A DNA stretch of 64,000 nt from an uncultured bacterium (GTDB taxonomy: Bacteria; Bacillota; Clostridia; Lachnospirales; Lachnospiraceae), in assembly GCA_947647735.1 (NCBI GenBank), contig CANSLJ010000005.1, positions 102,168 through 166,167 of the forward strand, in the 5' to 3' direction. Within the stretch, counting starts at the first letter, position 1, and each line of letters opens with the position of its first letter. The position numbers and the translations under genes were made by a program. The notes below the pieces were generated by a model. That model had not been told where the DNA came from, did no database searches, and was given only the letters and a program-made list of their open reading frames with translations. Of this stretch, positions 8,713-55,195 are shown piece by piece.

Positions 8713-8778
8713 TCGCAGGAGCACAACTTCATGCGTTTAGCAAATAGTGAGCACAGCTCACAAAAAAACTAAAAGTCA

Positions 8779-8893
8779 GCATGAGCCCGTACAGTGCCCA
8801 GAGAATTTACGGGCGGGAAATCGACCGGAAATTTCTCTGCCGGATATGGTACTGGGAGGGCTCATGCGGAACTGGAATAGGAGGAATTAAAAC
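8779..8893 (+). ncRNA. Recurrent intercistronic RNA-like element, copy A
   Basis: Perfect 10-bp outer arms GCATGAGCCC (8779-8788) and GGGCTCATGC (8858-8867). Inside, CAGTGCC pairs with GGTACTG (one G-U) and AGAGAA with TTCTCT. The closing arm runs into the box ATGCGGAACTGGAA (8864-8877) and ribosome site TAGGAGG. The same design recurs at 40935 and 54394. It lies between the permease and binding-protein genes, where it may set relative expression. The function is not known to me. Confidence 0.6.
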
Positions 8894-10714
8894 ATGAAAA
8901 AGAAACTGTTAAGTTTGCTTTGCGGTGTGACCATGCTGGCAGCGGCCCTGACCGGCTGCGGTTCTGCGGAAGCACCGGCGGCAGCAGAAGGGGAAGCGGC
9001 GGCTTCCGCAGACGGAGCAAAGATCGCTCTGATCACCATGGACTCCATCGACCAGCACTGGATCAGCCTGAATGAGGGCGCCCAGAAAGCGGCGGGAGAG
9101 CTCGGCGTAGAAGTGACATTCATGTCACCTAATACAAAGGACGACGCACAGCAGATCGAGTGTGTGAACAATGCGGTGGCAGGCGGCTATGCAGCTATCA
9201 TCGTGGCAGCAAACGGCCCCGACGCGATCTCTTCCGCACTGAAGGAAGCGATCGACGCAGGCATCAAGGTTGTATATGTAGACTCCCCTGCAAACGTGGA
9301 TGCGGAAGCTACCTTCTCCACAGATAACGTGGCGGCAGGCACGACAGCAGGCGAAGAGATGATCAAGGCTCTGGAAGCAAAAGGCATTACAAGCGGTGAC
9401 ATCGGTATTGTCAATGTCAATGCGGCAACCCAGTCCACAGTGGACAGAGAAAACGGTTTCAGAAAAGCATTTGAAGGCACAGGCTTCAACCTGCTTGAGA
9501 CACAGTACGGCGAAGGTGATGCGGCAAAATCCCAGACCATCGCAGAGAACTATATCACCCAGAAGGTAGTAGGTATCTTCGGATGTAACGAAGGAAGCAC
9601 AACAGGAACAGGCAATGCGATCAAGGCATCCGGCAGCTCCGACATCGTGGGCGTAGGTTTTGATAAGTCCGATGCGATCCAGGGACTGATCACAGACGGA
9701 TATCTGCTCTGCACCATGGCTCAGAATCCGGACGTGATGGGTTATGAGGGCGTGAAGGCGGCAGTTGCGGCGATCGGCGGCGAATCCCTCGGCGGCAAAG
9801 TGACAGATACGGGCGTTTCCGTTATTGATGCGGCGGCACTCGGCGGTGCGGCACCGGCGGCAGATGCCGGCGACGCGGTGAAGGCAAGCAAGGCATGGAA
9901 GATCGCTCTGATCACAATGGACTCCATCGACCAGCACTGGGTAACCTTAAATGAGGGCGCTCAGGCAAAGGCGGAAGAACTCGGCGTAGAAGTGACATTC
10001 ATGTCACCTAACACAAAAGACGACGCACAGCAGATCGAATGTGTAAACAATGCGGTGGCAGGCAACTACGAAGCGATCATCGTGGCGGCAAACGGCCCCG
10101 ACGCGATCTCCTCCGCACTGAAAGAAGCGATCGACGCAGGCATCAAAGTTGTATATGTTGACTCCCCTGCAAATGTGGATGCGGAAGCTACCTTCTCCAC
10201 AGATAACGTGGCGGCAGGTACAACGGCAGGCGAGGAGATGATCAAGGCTCTGGAGGCGGCAGGCGTGACAAGCGGCGATATCGGTATTGTCAACGTAAAC
10301 GCGGCAACCCAGTCCACAGTGGACAGAGAAAACGGCTTCAGAAAAGCATTTGAAGGCACAGATTTCAATCTTCTTGAGACACAGTACGGCGAAGGCGATG
10401 CGGCGAAGTCTCAGACCATCGCGGAGAACTATATTACGCAGAACGTAGTAGGTATCTTCGGATGTAACGAAGGTTCTACAACAGGAACAGGCAATGCGAT
10501 CAAGGCATCCGGTAATTCCGGTATCGTGGGTGTAGGTTTCGATAAATCCGATGCGATCATGAATCTGATCGGTGACGGATATCTGCTCTGCACCATGGCT
10601 CAGAATCCTGATGTGATGGGTTCCATGGGCGTGGAAGCCTGCGTGAAGGCATTGGAGGGTGAGTCCCTCGGCGGCGTGGTGACAGATACAGGGGTTTCTG
10701 TACTTACAAAATAA
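8894..10714 (+). CDS. Sugar-binding lipoprotein with two tandem binding domains
   Basis: 606 residues, about twice the usual size of an RbsB-like protein. Lipobox LTGC with Cys22 indicates membrane anchoring. Two periplasmic-binding-protein domains follow, about 43-315 and 336-606, each starting KIALITMDSIDQHW and containing VVYVDSPANVDAEA, NVNAATQSTVDRENGF and CTMAQNPDVMG. The copies are 293 codons apart (879 bp) and differ at roughly two dozen of about 265 positions by eye. A short Ala/Asp-rich linker joins them. This is the solute receptor for the adjacent ATPase and permease; two sites on one anchor may raise local capacity or capture two ligands. Ribosome site TAGGAGG belongs to leader copy A. 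The frame is continuous throughout. Confidence 0.93.
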   Translation: MKKKLLSLLCGVTMLAAALTGCGSAEAPAAAEGEAAASADGAKIALITMDSIDQHWISLNEGAQKAAGELGVEVTFMSPNTKDDAQQIECVNNAVAGGYAAIIVAANGPDAISSALKEAIDAGIKVVYVDSPANVDAEATFSTDNVAAGTTAGEEMIKALEAKGITSGDIGIVNVNAATQSTVDRENGFRKAFEGTGFNLLETQYGEGDAAKSQTIAENYITQKVVGIFGCNEGSTTGTGNAIKASGSSDIVGVGFDKSDAIQGLITDGYLLCTMAQNPDVMGYEGVKAAVAAIGGESLGGKVTDTGVSVIDAAALGGAAPAADAGDAVKASKAWKIALITMDSIDQHWVTLNEGAQAKAEELGVEVTFMSPNTKDDAQQIECVNNAVAGNYEAIIVAANGPDAISSALKEAIDAGIKVVYVDSPANVDAEATFSTDNVAAGTTAGEEMIKALEAAGVTSGDIGIVNVNAATQSTVDRENGFRKAFEGTDFNLLETQYGEGDAAKSQTIAENYITQNVVGIFGCNEGSTTGTGNAIKASGNSGIVGVGFDKSDAIMNLIGDGYLLCTMAQNPDVMGSMGVEACVKALEGESLGGVVTDTGVSVLTK

Positions 10715-30413: not shown

Positions 30414-30493
30414 AAAATAAAATTTGGGATTTTTGCAATTTGTTCGGCGCGGGTACATTGACACCGGCAGAATAAAATGATATATTGTCTTTT

Positions 30494-30654
30494 AGATAGA
30501 GGTTGCGCCTGTTATCAGTAACCTGTCTGATGTGGCAGTCACAGGGGAGGACAGATGAAAGGAACCGGCGCCGAAGGATATGTTTTACTGCGGGGCATTT
30601 CCTGGGCATGTACTGAAGAAGTGCATGACTGTCATCGGCAGATGGGGCGCTATC
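30494..30654 (+). ncRNA. Lysine riboswitch (L-box)
   Basis: The region matches the L-box pattern: P1 5' strand GATAGAGG with GCGC, internal AGTA, GAAAGG and GGCGCCGAAGG, then TGACTGTCATC and the 3' strand GGGGCGCTATC, with GATAG pairing to CTATC. A terminator follows (30671-30697), so lysine binding should stop transcription ahead of dapA. The 370-bp gap 30414-30784 is mostly this device. Confidence 0.9.
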
Positions 30655-30670
30655 AAACTTTAGTCTATTT

Positions 30671-30697
30671 GGCGGCTCATGTTGCATGGGCCGTTTT
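30671..30697 (+). terminator. Riboswitch-controlled terminator
   Basis: GGCGGCTCATG and CATGGGCCGTT pair through G-U wobbles around a TTG loop, followed by TTTT. Confidence 0.7.
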
Positions 30698-39308: not shown

Positions 39309-39643
39309 AATGTTTTCCTCCTCATATATGTATAGCATACGCAGCAATAACTCGCTTTAAAGCGTTACGGTTTAAAGTGCTAAAGTGACTGCTTTTATGA
39401 GTATAGGGGATATGGAGGGAAAAGTCAAGAGGGGATTATCCGGGCTGGGTTACGATGCAAATTATTTTTGCAGGAGGGTTAAGGGATGGCAGAAAAATGC
39501 CGATGAAATGTATGTAAAATATTTTGAGAAGTTTTTTAGTAATAGTTCAGCCAGGGATGGCGGCAGAATTTCCACGGATGGAAGAGAAGACGGGAATTTT
39601 GCCGTTTTTTGTTTTGCAGGAAAACGGGATGGAAAGGAGCAGC
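39309..39643. other. Intergenic region between the symporter and an unknown gene
   Basis: Divergent 335-bp region. It holds CGCTTTAAAGCG (39353-39364) and a related TTTAAAGTG 16 bp on, a possible operator pair, and a strong AGGAGG at 39472 before a six-codon frame (ATG at 39486). A 127-codon open frame across it (39385-39768) overlaps the real gene and looks like chance. No promoter box is confident. Confidence 0.35.
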
Positions 39644-40930
39644 ATGATATTTACGGAACAGAGTCCTGTTTATCAAAGGAGTATGGATGGTATGGATATC
39701 ATAACGGGGAAAGACAGGCCGGGTATTGTATCAGGGAAAAGCAGGTGGAACAGTCCATCTGTCGATAAAAACAGGGAAGACTTTTTCAGCCATATTTCAA
39801 GGGCGGCTGGGAAGGCGCAGGAAGAGGTTGAGGATAAGGAAGAGACAAAGAATGGGAGTGCCGGGGAGGTGATAAGGGATTCTTCCGGAAAAGAGGACGG
39901 GACGAGCAGGGAAGCGCTGATGCGTGTGATCGCCGAGCAGCGGGAGGAGATCCTGCGGAAGTTAAAAAACGGGGATACCGGGGTGCGGATACCGATCGGC
40001 AGCATGAGCCTGACGGAGGAGGAGTGGGACAGACTGCTGGATGGCTTTGACAAGGCGCAGGAAAAGATCCAGGAGTCGATCCGGGAAGAAAACGGAGAAA
40101 GCCTGCCGGAGAAAAGACCGGATACCATGGTGAACGGCGACAAGGTTTTTGAGGCGGAGGATACGGGGCATGATGTAAAGAGCCTCGAGGATCTGATGAG
40201 TGAGGTCGGCCTCGAGGGAAAGGTGGAAGAGAAGAGCGGTTTTGAGAAATACCTTACCGGTGTGCAGGTGATGACAAAGACCGGAAACTGCAGTGTGCCT
40301 GCCGGAATATGGGGCAGGACGGATTTTCCATTCTGGGAGTTTTTTAAGGAGGGGACATCGGCGGATGCCCTGAATAACTGGCAGCCCTCAGGGCCCCAGC
40401 CGAATATGCTGGATCAGAAGGTTCAGAGAAACCTGCAGGGCATCGGATACGGGAAGGTGAGTATCCTGATCCCGGATAAGCTGCAGGCAAAGATGGATGC
40501 AGATCCGGCTTACGCGGATGAAATATACCGGAAGGTTGCGGAATGGAAGGAAAACTATGACGCTTGGGATAACGCGACGGCTGCTTCTCTCGGCATGAAT
40601 GTGGCGGCCCATCAGTTTTCCAAGAGTTACTGTCTGCAGCTCGACGAGGACGGCAATGTGGAAAACTTTACGGTGGTGGGCGGCGGCCTGGATATCAGCG
40701 GTAAGAAAGAGAACGAGGATGTGGAAGATAACTGGTTAAAACGCAGAAACGCGGCGATCCTGTTCCACAAACAGCATCTCGCAAGGCAGGGTTATACCGG
40801 CCTGACGGGAACTGCCGGAATCGTGGCGCAGGAGGGGGAAGCATCGCCCCTGTCGCTGCTCAGGATGGCGCTGATGGCGGAGACGCTGGTTTCGCCGGAT
40901 GTGCGGAAGAGGTCGGATGCGGAAGTGTAA
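39644..40930 (+). CDS. Unknown protein, probable partner of the 41049 gene
   Basis: 428 residues, no signal peptide or membrane helix. Low-complexity charged N-terminal half (about 60-200) with SLTEEEWDRLLDGFDKAQEKI, a central GFEKYLTGVQVMTKTGNCSVP, and a C-terminal NVAAHQFSKSYCLQLDEDGNV. The domain resembles families of unknown function in Lachnospiraceae; I cannot name it with certainty. ATG at 39644 is chosen since AAAGGAG lies at correct spacing; an upstream start at 39524 is rejected. Leader element copy B follows the stop at once, then the 41049 gene, implying one operon. Confidence 0.65.
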   Translation: MIFTEQSPVYQRSMDGMDIITGKDRPGIVSGKSRWNSPSVDKNREDFFSHISRAAGKAQEEVEDKEETKNGSAGEVIRDSSGKEDGTSREALMRVIAEQREEILRKLKNGDTGVRIPIGSMSLTEEEWDRLLDGFDKAQEKIQESIREENGESLPEKRPDTMVNGDKVFEAEDTGHDVKSLEDLMSEVGLEGKVEEKSGFEKYLTGVQVMTKTGNCSVPAGIWGRTDFPFWEFFKEGTSADALNNWQPSGPQPNMLDQKVQRNLQGIGYGKVSILIPDKLQAKMDADPAYADEIYRKVAEWKENYDAWDNATAASLGMNVAAHQFSKSYCLQLDEDGNVENFTVVGGGLDISGKKENEDVEDNWLKRRNAAILFHKQHLARQGYTGLTGTAGIVAQEGEASPLSLLRMALMAETLVSPDVRKRSDAEV

Positions 40931-40934
40931 AACA

Positions 40935-41040
40935 GCATGAGCCCGGACAGTGCACAAGACAATCTGCAGACGCAGAGCGGCTGAAGATTTGTCTTAGGGA
41001 TGGTGTACTGGCAGGGCGAATGCGGAACTGGAATAGAGGA
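40935..41040 (+). ncRNA. Recurrent intercistronic RNA-like element, copy B
   Basis: Outer arms GCATGAGCCC (40935-40944) and GGGCGAATGC (41014-41023) pair except for a central GA/GA, which can form tandem sheared pairs. Inside, CAGTGCAC pairs with GTGTACTG (one wobble) and AAGACAATCT with AGATTTGTCTT. The box ATGCGGAACTGGAA (41020-41033) and GAGGAG ribosome site follow. Compared with copy A, inner stem bases change in pairs. Confidence 0.6.
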
Positions 41041-41048
41041 GACAGAAT

Positions 41049-41711
41049 ATGAGAGTTACAACAAGTATGTTAAGCGAAACAACCGTGCAGGCGGGTATAC
41101 AGATGGGCGGAAATTCCCTGGTCAATTATCTGAACGGGGATATGACGGATTCCCTGGCGAGTTCTCTGGGGAACAAACATAAGATAACGGAGGGACCGCT
41201 TGCCCAGAAAAAGTATGAGAAATTGAAGGACGCAGCGGAAAAACTGGGGGAGAATGCCGCGAAGCTGAGCGGGGAGGGAAGCAGGTCTATCTACGAAAAA
41301 GCGCGTAAGAGCGAGGATGCCTCCGAAGTATATGATGAGGTGGAGAAGATGATCTCCAATTATAATGATCTGCTGGAGAAGGTGCGCACGGATACCAGTA
41401 CACTGGGCAGATTTTATCAGCAGAGCCTGAAGGAAGTGATGAAGGAAAACAAGGATGCGCTGGCGGCTATGGGCATTACGATAGACAAAAGCGGCAAGCT
41501 GAGTGTGGAGAAGGAAAAACTGAGAACTTCGGATCTGGACAGAGTGGAAAGTGTGTTCGGGGCGAACGGAACGATCTCCGGCAGGATCAGCGTGATAGCG
41601 GAAAAGGTGGCGGACAGCGCAAAGGCGAATTTAAAGAGCGCTTCCAGCCAGTATAATTCCTCCGGAAACAGTGTGGATGCACTGCTCCGGAACTATGATG
41701 CGAAGAGCTGA
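41049..41711 (+). CDS. Unknown helical protein with flagellin-like N-terminus
   Basis: 220 residues, no signal peptide. The start MRVTTSMLSETTVQAGIQMG resembles flagellin-type proteins such as FlgL (MRVT..M), and the central and C-terminal part is amphipathic coiled coil: EVYDEVEKMISNYNDLLEKV, then YNSSGNSVDALLRNYDA at the end. No flagellar gene is in the window, so this could be a secreted or structural protein rather than part of a filament. Expression is through copy B of the leader element. It converges on the MBOAT gene with a 19-bp gap and no terminator seen. Confidence 0.65.
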   Translation: MRVTTSMLSETTVQAGIQMGGNSLVNYLNGDMTDSLASSLGNKHKITEGPLAQKKYEKLKDAAEKLGENAAKLSGEGSRSIYEKARKSEDASEVYDEVEKMISNYNDLLEKVRTDTSTLGRFYQQSLKEVMKENKDALAAMGITIDKSGKLSVEKEKLRTSDLDRVESVFGANGTISGRISVIAEKVADSAKANLKSASSQYNSSGNSVDALLRNYDAKS

Positions 41712-54384: not shown

Positions 54385-54393
54385 CTAAAAACC

Positions 54394-54439
54394 GCATGAG
54401 CCTTTACCATAAAGGCTCATGCGGAACTGGAAGAAGGAG
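54394..54439 (+). ncRNA. Recurrent intercistronic RNA-like element, copy C (short form)
   Basis: A perfect hairpin GCATGAGCCTTTA (54394-54406) and TAAAGGCTCATGC (54410-54422) around CCA. It lacks the inner domain of copies A and B but keeps ATGCGGAACTGGAA (54419-54432) followed by AAGGAG, the tpiA ribosome site. Confidence 0.65.
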
Positions 54440-54448
54440 AATATAATA

Positions 54449-55195
54449 ATGGCAAGAAGAAAAATCGTAGCCGGAAACTGGAAAATGAATATGACACCCA
54501 GTCAGGCGGTAGCACTTTGTGAAGAATTAAAGGATCTGGTAAAATCCGACAGCGTAGATGTGGTTTACTGCGTACCTGCAGTGGACATCGTACCTGTTGT
54601 GGAAGCTGTAAAAGGCACAAACGTGGAAGTCGGCGCAGAGAATATGTATTTTGAGGAGAAGGGCGCTTACACAGGCGAGATCTCCGCAGCTATGCTGGTG
54701 GATGCAGGCGTGAAATACGTTATCATCGGCCACTCCGAGAGACGTGACTACTTCAAAGAGGATGATGCTCTCTTAAATAAGAAAGTGAAAAAAGCTTTCG
54801 AGGCAGGCCTTACACCGATCCTCTGCTGCGGCGAATCTCTGGAGCAGAGAGAGATGGGCGTTACCATGGACTGGATCCGTTTCCAGATCAAATCCGATCT
54901 TGTAGGCATCACGGCAGATCAGGTAAAAGAAATGGTTATCGCTTACGAGCCTATCTGGGCGATCGGCACAGGCAAGACCGCTACAACCGAGCAGGCTGAG
55001 GAAGTTTGTAAGGGGATTCGTGAGTGCATCGCTGAGATGTATGATGAAGCGACAGCAGAAGCAGTTCGCATTCAGTACGGCGGATCTGTAAATGCAGCGA
55101 ATGCGGCAGAGCTTTTCGCACAGCCTGATATCGACGGCGGCCTTGTCGGCGGCGCTTCCTTAAAGGCTGATTTTGGAAAGATCGTGAACTACTAA
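54449..55195 (+). CDS. tpiA: Triosephosphate isomerase
   Basis: 248 residues. Standard [15 protein letters not shown] (Asn/Lys), [12 protein letters not shown] (catalytic His), [15 protein letters not shown] (catalytic Glu), and [10 protein letters not shown] phosphate loop. It interconverts dihydroxyacetone phosphate and G3P. The real ATG is at 54449 after AAGGAGA; an in-frame 54419 ATG lies inside the leader hairpin. Highly biased codons. A terminator follows. Confidence 0.98.

Follow-up and report, generated by a model that had tools for sequence, protein, structure and literature searches.

Three hairpin sequences in the analyzed window, a stretch of 64,000 nucleotides from a Lachnospiraceae-type bacterium, are copies of one dispersed, covarying repeat that stands directly before ribosome sites. 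We read it, as the probable explanation, as a non-autonomous dispersed palindromic repeat of about 103 nt, which adjoins the Shine-Dalgarno (SD) sequence in sense orientation and would ride on operon mRNA as a hairpin with the SD left open. They appear to form a family of small, mobile and RNA-forming repeats that has not been described before and that occurs in this bacterium and some of its relatives. Small structured intergenic repeats are already known as a kind; what sets this family apart from those compared is the sense orientation directly before the SD.

The original prediction placed three copies of one element at 8779, 40935 and 54394. They are present there, and the covariance model R1 sets their boundaries at 8775-8877, 40931-41033 and 54390-54432, all on the + strand. 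Copy A (8775..8877, 104.1 bits) is a full-length element of 103 nt, consisting of CAG, the stems and the tail GGAACTGGAA. Both the fold of the alignment and the fold of the copy itself give an outer stem with the 5' arm GCATGAGCCC (8779..8788, +) and the 3' arm GGGCTCATGC (8858..8867, +), and a second stem whose 5' arm CAGTGCC (8792..8798, +) has its partner at 8848-8854. The tail (8868..8877, +) is unpaired in the fold except for its first base or two. It is followed by the host leader TAGGAGGAATTAAAAC with the SD (8878..8893, +) and by the gene start at 8894. Copy B (40931..41033, +, 102.1 bits) is also full-length and lies directly after the stop codon of the ORF at 39524-40930; its host leader with the SD (TAGAGGAG) covers 41034..41048 (+) and the gene starts at 41049. 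Copy C (54390..54432, +, 37.2 bits) consists of the outer hairpin and the tail only, as had been noticed before, and looks like an internal-deletion derivative. The host leader behind it (54433..54448, +) carries the SD GAAGGAG and leads to the tpiA start at 54449. The 14-base box ATGCGGAACTGGAA, described as common to all three copies, occurs exactly three times in the window. Allowing up to two mismatches, it was found 5 times, compared to a shuffle mean of 0.70 and a maximum of 4; neither of the inexact matches (at 715 and at 40917) was accepted as a copy, the second being a tail-like left flank of copy B. The three genes behind the copies are indeed unrelated in function. They encode a periplasmic sugar-binding protein, a protein with a weak match to FliD_C (Pfam) and triosephosphate isomerase, the FliD_C match qualifying the earlier description of the second product as an unknown helical protein.

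For analysis of the structure, 24 full-length copies from the window's own genome, chosen for CAG, complementary arms and tail, were aligned with MAFFT (alignment A1). They fold into a single long interrupted hairpin followed by the tail GGAACTGGAA. CAG forms the foot of the hairpin and is followed by an outer stem of 10 pairs (GCATnnGCCC with GGGCnnATGC), a second stem in which a CAGTGCAC-like strand pairs with a GTGTACTG-like strand, and a long inner stem capped by a short hairpin. The compensatory changes suspected between the window copies extend to all 24 aligned copies, RNAalifold giving 30 pairs of which 26 have changes on both sides. Pairing was found in 95.4% of the A1 cells and dropped to 31-47% when the partners were slid by 1 to 3 columns. 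The covariation score of 0.533 compares with 0.232 in shuffles and was reached by 0 of 500 shuffles. Complementarity of the outer arms had been a criterion in choosing the copies, so that the outer stem by itself is weak evidence; the two inner stems, which were unselected, show double changes in 5 of 6 and 13 of 14 pairs. A second alignment over several genera (A2; 112 matches, 105 of them distinct, including one opposite-strand reading, L080) has double changes in 29 of 30 pairs and, being fitted to the model, leans towards it. The z-scores of the sense folds are -5.9 for A, -5.7 for B and -8.1 for C, with the SD unpaired in all three, and those of the antisense folds are -4.95 for A and -4.54 for B. 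Outside the stems, conservation is mostly restricted to the tail, to the foot and to one CA of an internal loop, and the sequence of the outer stem varies by locus. The invariance of CAG in the 24 aligned copies arises by construction, because they were picked with CAG; among 67 catalogued copies of the own genome it stands at the hairpin foot in 62, preceded by A, T or G. A leader peptide in the tail (ATG CGG AAC TGG) was rejected, as other copies have CTG, TTG or TTA at the position of the ATG.

The two strands can be told apart by their wobble pairs. Each G-U cell of the sense strand reads as A-C in the antisense strand. If the constraint acted on double-stranded DNA, the two would be expected in similar numbers. 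The counts are 56 G-U versus 9 A-C cells in A1 and 198 versus 34 in A2. The cells cannot be counted as independent events, and much of the excess comes from two positions where G-U is widespread; with these two and the one A-C-rich position removed, A2 has 91 G-U versus 25 A-C cells. These counts suggest that the strand which folds is the one with mRNA sense, either as RNA or as single-stranded DNA of that sense. The G-U excess speaks for the strand and not for the molecule, and the structure could thus be kept for a single-stranded DNA form used in mobility rather than for a function as RNA.

The covariance-model search suggested together with the prediction yielded many further covarying copies, namely 82 R1 matches with E<=1 in the genome from which the window derives (4.1 Mb in 63 contigs, 86.55% complete). 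The catalogue with flanks comprises 67 distinct places. The 15 dropped matches consist of 10 opposite-strand readings of places already listed and 5 weak matches (E 0.02 to 0.9). Full-length copies (>75 bits) make up 45 of the 67, and besides copy C there are 14 short matches of 30-56 nt. The 17-mer CTCATGCGGAACTGGAA, allowing up to two mismatches, was found 37 times in the own genome, compared to 0 for the reversed control. Among 41 relatives searched at E<=0.01, matches occur in 7 of the 9 genus genomes (15 to 89 each) and in G021, which belongs to another genus (92 matches; 114 under laxer filters), while 33 of the 41, including two genus members, gave no R1 match at this threshold. In an even sampling of the family (299 genomes, 298 genera), 7 genomes from 6 genera match at E<=1e-4 under stricter filters. 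Relatives were also collected through tpiA; the 80 kept of 579 found were all Lachnospiraceae-type, with a single weak R1 match (L152, E 0.014). The tpiA joint of some of these genomes (L139, L151, L152 and L157) has an unrelated repeat-like palindromic sequence upstream.

The statement that no named family matches agrees with Rfam 15, in which the copies tested hit no family at gathering score. Matches at relaxed thresholds (copy A and 5 own-genome loci) were all far under the gathering scores, and a riboswitch or other Rfam family was rejected for the element, nothing coming close. The Rfam search of the window returned only a lysine riboswitch away from the three copies (RF00168, 110 bits, 30489-30660, +), located before the ORF at 30686. 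For a phage origin, also rejected, two exact patterns gave 0 matches in a viral collection, which is weak evidence because matching was exact only. Full-text searches of an open-access library yielded no description of the repeat, and the papers there that contain GCGGAACTGGAA have unrelated titles.

The position of the copies relative to genes was analyzed over 461 kb of the own genome, on the basis of crude gene calls. All 23 copies found there read towards the next gene, none is antisense, and 20 of the 23 lie between co-directional genes. Equal frequency inside genes, named beforehand as an argument against the element, was not seen, as 0 of the 23 lie within predicted genes. Two degenerate copies are located far from a predicted start (C2:80644, 198 nt; C5:32105, 273 nt). 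Over the whole catalogue, 50 of 67 copies are followed within 40 nt by an SD-preceded start whose ORF has at least 80 codons, compared to 1 of 67 for the antisense control on the other side of the element, and in 36 of these 50 the distance to the start is 11 to 16 nt. A co-directional stop lies within 150 nt upstream of 61 of the 67. The best 30 copies of G021 behave alike (start 24/30, antisense control 0/30, upstream co-directional stop 22/30). Of the 17 own copies that fail the start test, 4 are flagged as preceding another unit. Among the remaining 13, three more also run into a further unit and three lie before a second short repeat; others have a gene start that the test does not cover, or an end that has decayed. 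In a purely descriptive comparison, the SD window is slightly more open over 32 copies (0.61) than over 191 other genes (0.51). The description as a palindromic intergenic repeat carrying a start signal holds for the dispersed intergenic repeat and fails for the start signal. The SD is host sequence outside the repeat, as the inner units of tandem arrays run into the next unit instead. A further short repeat, like TAGACCGAGCTGAAAGCGAGGGATACGAGCAAAAAGCGGAGCGTTTGCGAGTAGG, is located directly after the element tail and before the start codon at L004, L025, G000:C10:71847, G003 L213 and L336.

We propose that the repeat spreads and then settles just 5' of the SD, mostly between co-directional operon genes and in sense. 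It would probably be a non-autonomous mobile repeat that can persist, or can insert, nowhere but immediately before a ribosome site. Once inserted, it would be transcribed and fold in the mRNA as a long interrupted hairpin, followed by the largely unpaired tail GGAACUGGAA and the open SD, so that translation of the downstream gene would not be blocked. The hairpin would probably serve as a spacer and as a processing or stability element. It may, for example, be a site for a double-strand RNase, which would separate the cistrons and leave a structured 5' end on the downstream message. Correia/NEMIS transcripts are cleaved by RNase III and ERIC destabilizes the upstream mRNA in one orientation, according to the cited passages (PMC10969869, PMC2229807, PMC3049150); by this analogy, mRNA processing at the element is plausible.

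Comparison between relatives shows that the element is variable between species. The site of copy A is empty in G005 and G008, has one divergent copy in G003 and holds two different tandem copies in G006; in G001 the element is absent and a different palindrome is present. Four more sites (S1-S4, with 5, 2, 2 and 4 loci without a flank pair, respectively) and 20 comparisons with own DNA, drawn from 60 relative loci, revealed empty, single, tandem and decayed states. Near-identical tandem copies exist, and in arrays such as L288, L304, L316, L330 and L336 the SD-adjoining unit is intact and the upstream units are decayed by deletion. The initial reading as either structured cis-RNA or palindromic intergenic repeat finds support in a repeat that is dispersed, lineage-variable and kept paired by covariation. 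At one orthologous joint (own C22:57533 and G006 L214) the copies have the tail variant GGTACTGGAATAGAGG in common and differ in their well-paired outer stems. Another palindromic intergenic family, larger than the first and with a CGGACACTAAGCTCGTGAGGGACCTCGCTAAGTGCCGGCG-like core, occurs at some of the element's operon joints and was seen at G000:C2 in L279 (facing L331), G006 L290, G003 L213 and G001 L096.

Tail-like repeats in the left flank share the locus-specific variants of the tail. Of 80 first units, 46 match at >=9/10, compared to a mean of 26.6 and a maximum of 34 in the permutation control, in which the observed mean was reached in 0 of 2000 cases. The 80 belong to 99 rows used of 105 listed and 132 regex candidates; in a separate step, the rows L261 and L264 have wrong boundaries and were left out of the counts. 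The shared variants indicate that part of these repeats arose locally, and we favour tandem duplication and decay over target-site duplication. A clean target-site duplication was set aside as uncertain, since remnants of upstream units account equally well for the flanking repeats. In the 461 kb, a simple score scan for separated halves found no gene-split copies. Of the 5' halves, three had no scored 3' counterpart, and each of these has a degenerate or low-scoring 3' part on inspection; several 3' ends stand alone.

Among 13 empty sites that are clean by eye, 6 loci and one split site read (A/T)CAGGAG: those of copy A in G001, G005 and G008, S3 in G001 and G007, S4 in G001, and the own sites facing L290, L301 (the same site as L329), L303 and L330. 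Six of the 13 do not read CAGGAG (S1, S2, L293, L304, L328 and L314). Set aside were L297, L326 and L332, which have a tail remnant, and L331, which has another insert at the SD side. In element-free own genes with a GGAG core, (A/T)CAGGAG was found in 29 of 155 (binomial 0.022 for 6 of 13). The apparent preference for CAGGAG is suggestive only, since sister species do not represent ancestors and the sets being compared were taken from different genomes. One may tentatively imagine an element that homes to SDs, inserting in a single orientation between (A/T)CAG and GAGG so that the site still works, with the sense-strand hairpin (single-stranded DNA or RNA) as the travelling form and with tandem multiplication in place that keeps the copy at the SD side intact. 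The orientation lock could also result from selection after insertion. If insertion itself were aimed at the SD, a structured RNA module would be set at many operon joints in one orientation, and relative expression inside operons could be rewired naturally and genome-wide. Sister species have these joints in the filled, empty, tandem or decayed state and so offer a test bed for the effect of an intercistronic hairpin.

We consider it rather unlikely that the element is REP- or IS200/IS605-like, with an HUH (Y1) transposase that recognizes a single-stranded DNA hairpin and inserts 3' of (A/T)CAG in CAG^GAGG without target-site duplication. Such a directional target would produce the orientation lock, and the CAG foot of 62 of the 67 copies and the (A/T)CAGGAG empty sites (6 loci and one split of 13, versus 29 of 155 genes) fit it, as does the description, in the cited part of the source, of IS200/IS605 elements as lacking terminal inverted repeats and larger target duplications (PMC2817692). 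However, Y1_Tnp was not found in the element-bearing draft genomes G001, G005 and G021; it is present in G003, G006, G007 and G008, and G000 has a contig-end fragment only. RVT_1 was not found in the element-bearing drafts G001 and G008 and is present in the element-free G002. Both the Y1 transposase and a reverse transcriptase were rejected as partners, because in these draft genomes their presence fails to track the element. In addition, the tandem junctions (GGAACTGGAA then AACAGC) do not look like products of insertion at CAG or TAG, the sequence CAGGAG is missing from six of the 13 clean empty sites, and the scan of the 461 kb gave no gene-split copy.

A neutral origin, in which the palindromes are corrected by template switching and stand before the SD only because other insertions were lost, also appears improbable. 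It would fit the presence and absence between species, the decay of upstream copies, the locus-specific outer stems and the two degenerate copies away from a start, but the bulges of the inner stems are kept while the stems covary, and 0 of 23 copies are antisense. A cis-regulatory RNA, which would bind a ligand or protein and govern the genes that follow, would agree with the strong covariation, the sense strand and the near-constant distance to the start codon, but is very improbable given the unrelated downstream genes (three compared), the empty sites in close relatives, the near-identical tandem copies and the conservation outside the stems, which lies mostly in the tail, the foot and the internal-loop CA.

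The SD-adjoining dispersed repeat can be compared with known systems. Fixed terminal inverted repeats, as in MITEs of the DDE type, were not found; the outer arms pair, but their sequence is largely locus-specific. Candidates for a target-site duplication, as in MITEs, would be the local tail repeats, which tandem duplication with decay explains at least equally well. With REP/RAYT the element shares a hairpin whose 5' foot carries a conserved motif (CAG, 62/67); a rayt (Y1) gene was lacking in the drafts of G001, G005 and G021, with a fragment in G000. As in repeats of the ERIC, bcr and BOX kind, there are many intergenic copies below 200 bp with a conserved hairpin, variable between relatives. 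ERIC is not known to have a transposase. ERIC (IRU/RU-1) of enterobacteria is likewise a small intergenic repeat that forms a long RNA hairpin within transcripts, and its effect on the upstream mRNA depends on orientation; it has another host, and in this comparison by description only, the cited passages mention neither a fixed position before the SD nor a sense lock (PMC2229807, PMC3049150). The repeats bcr1-bcr18 of the Bacillus cereus group are dispersed and intergenic, some with conserved RNA structure, and 84 of 165 and 62 of 155 copies in two strains lie in mRNA, within UTRs or operon gaps; again compared by description only, an SD-adjacent sense lock is absent from the cited account (PMC3446304). 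BOX, RUP and SPRITE of pneumococcus are proliferated and structured, BOX being modular and transcribed. They differ from the element in that both BOX and RUP carry terminal inverted repeats together with target duplications, and SPRITE is enriched near gene 3' ends, as described in the cited sections (PMC3049150). REP/BIME with RAYT also form many intergenic copies of a palindrome with a short conserved 5' motif, but the REPs listed in the cited part are much shorter and flank a rayt gene, whereas the element does not co-occur with Y1_Tnp (PMC2817692). Among the families compared, the TAACTGA heptamers of Beggiatoaceae are the nearest analogue in placement; in the cited passages they are mostly forward, close before start codons and without a functional gene pattern, but are 7-nt direct repeats which overlap the expected RBS, mostly without an SD (PMC4679880). 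A scan of 40 genomes for small structured intergenic repeats reported 92 families, 67 of them new, in the part cited here (PMC2267715). The sense lock directly before the SD, seen in the 67 own copies and 30 copies of G021, sets the element apart from the compared families. The best reading is a small palindromic repeat of the ERIC, bcr and BOX kind, but one that is sense-locked directly before the Shine-Dalgarno sequence.
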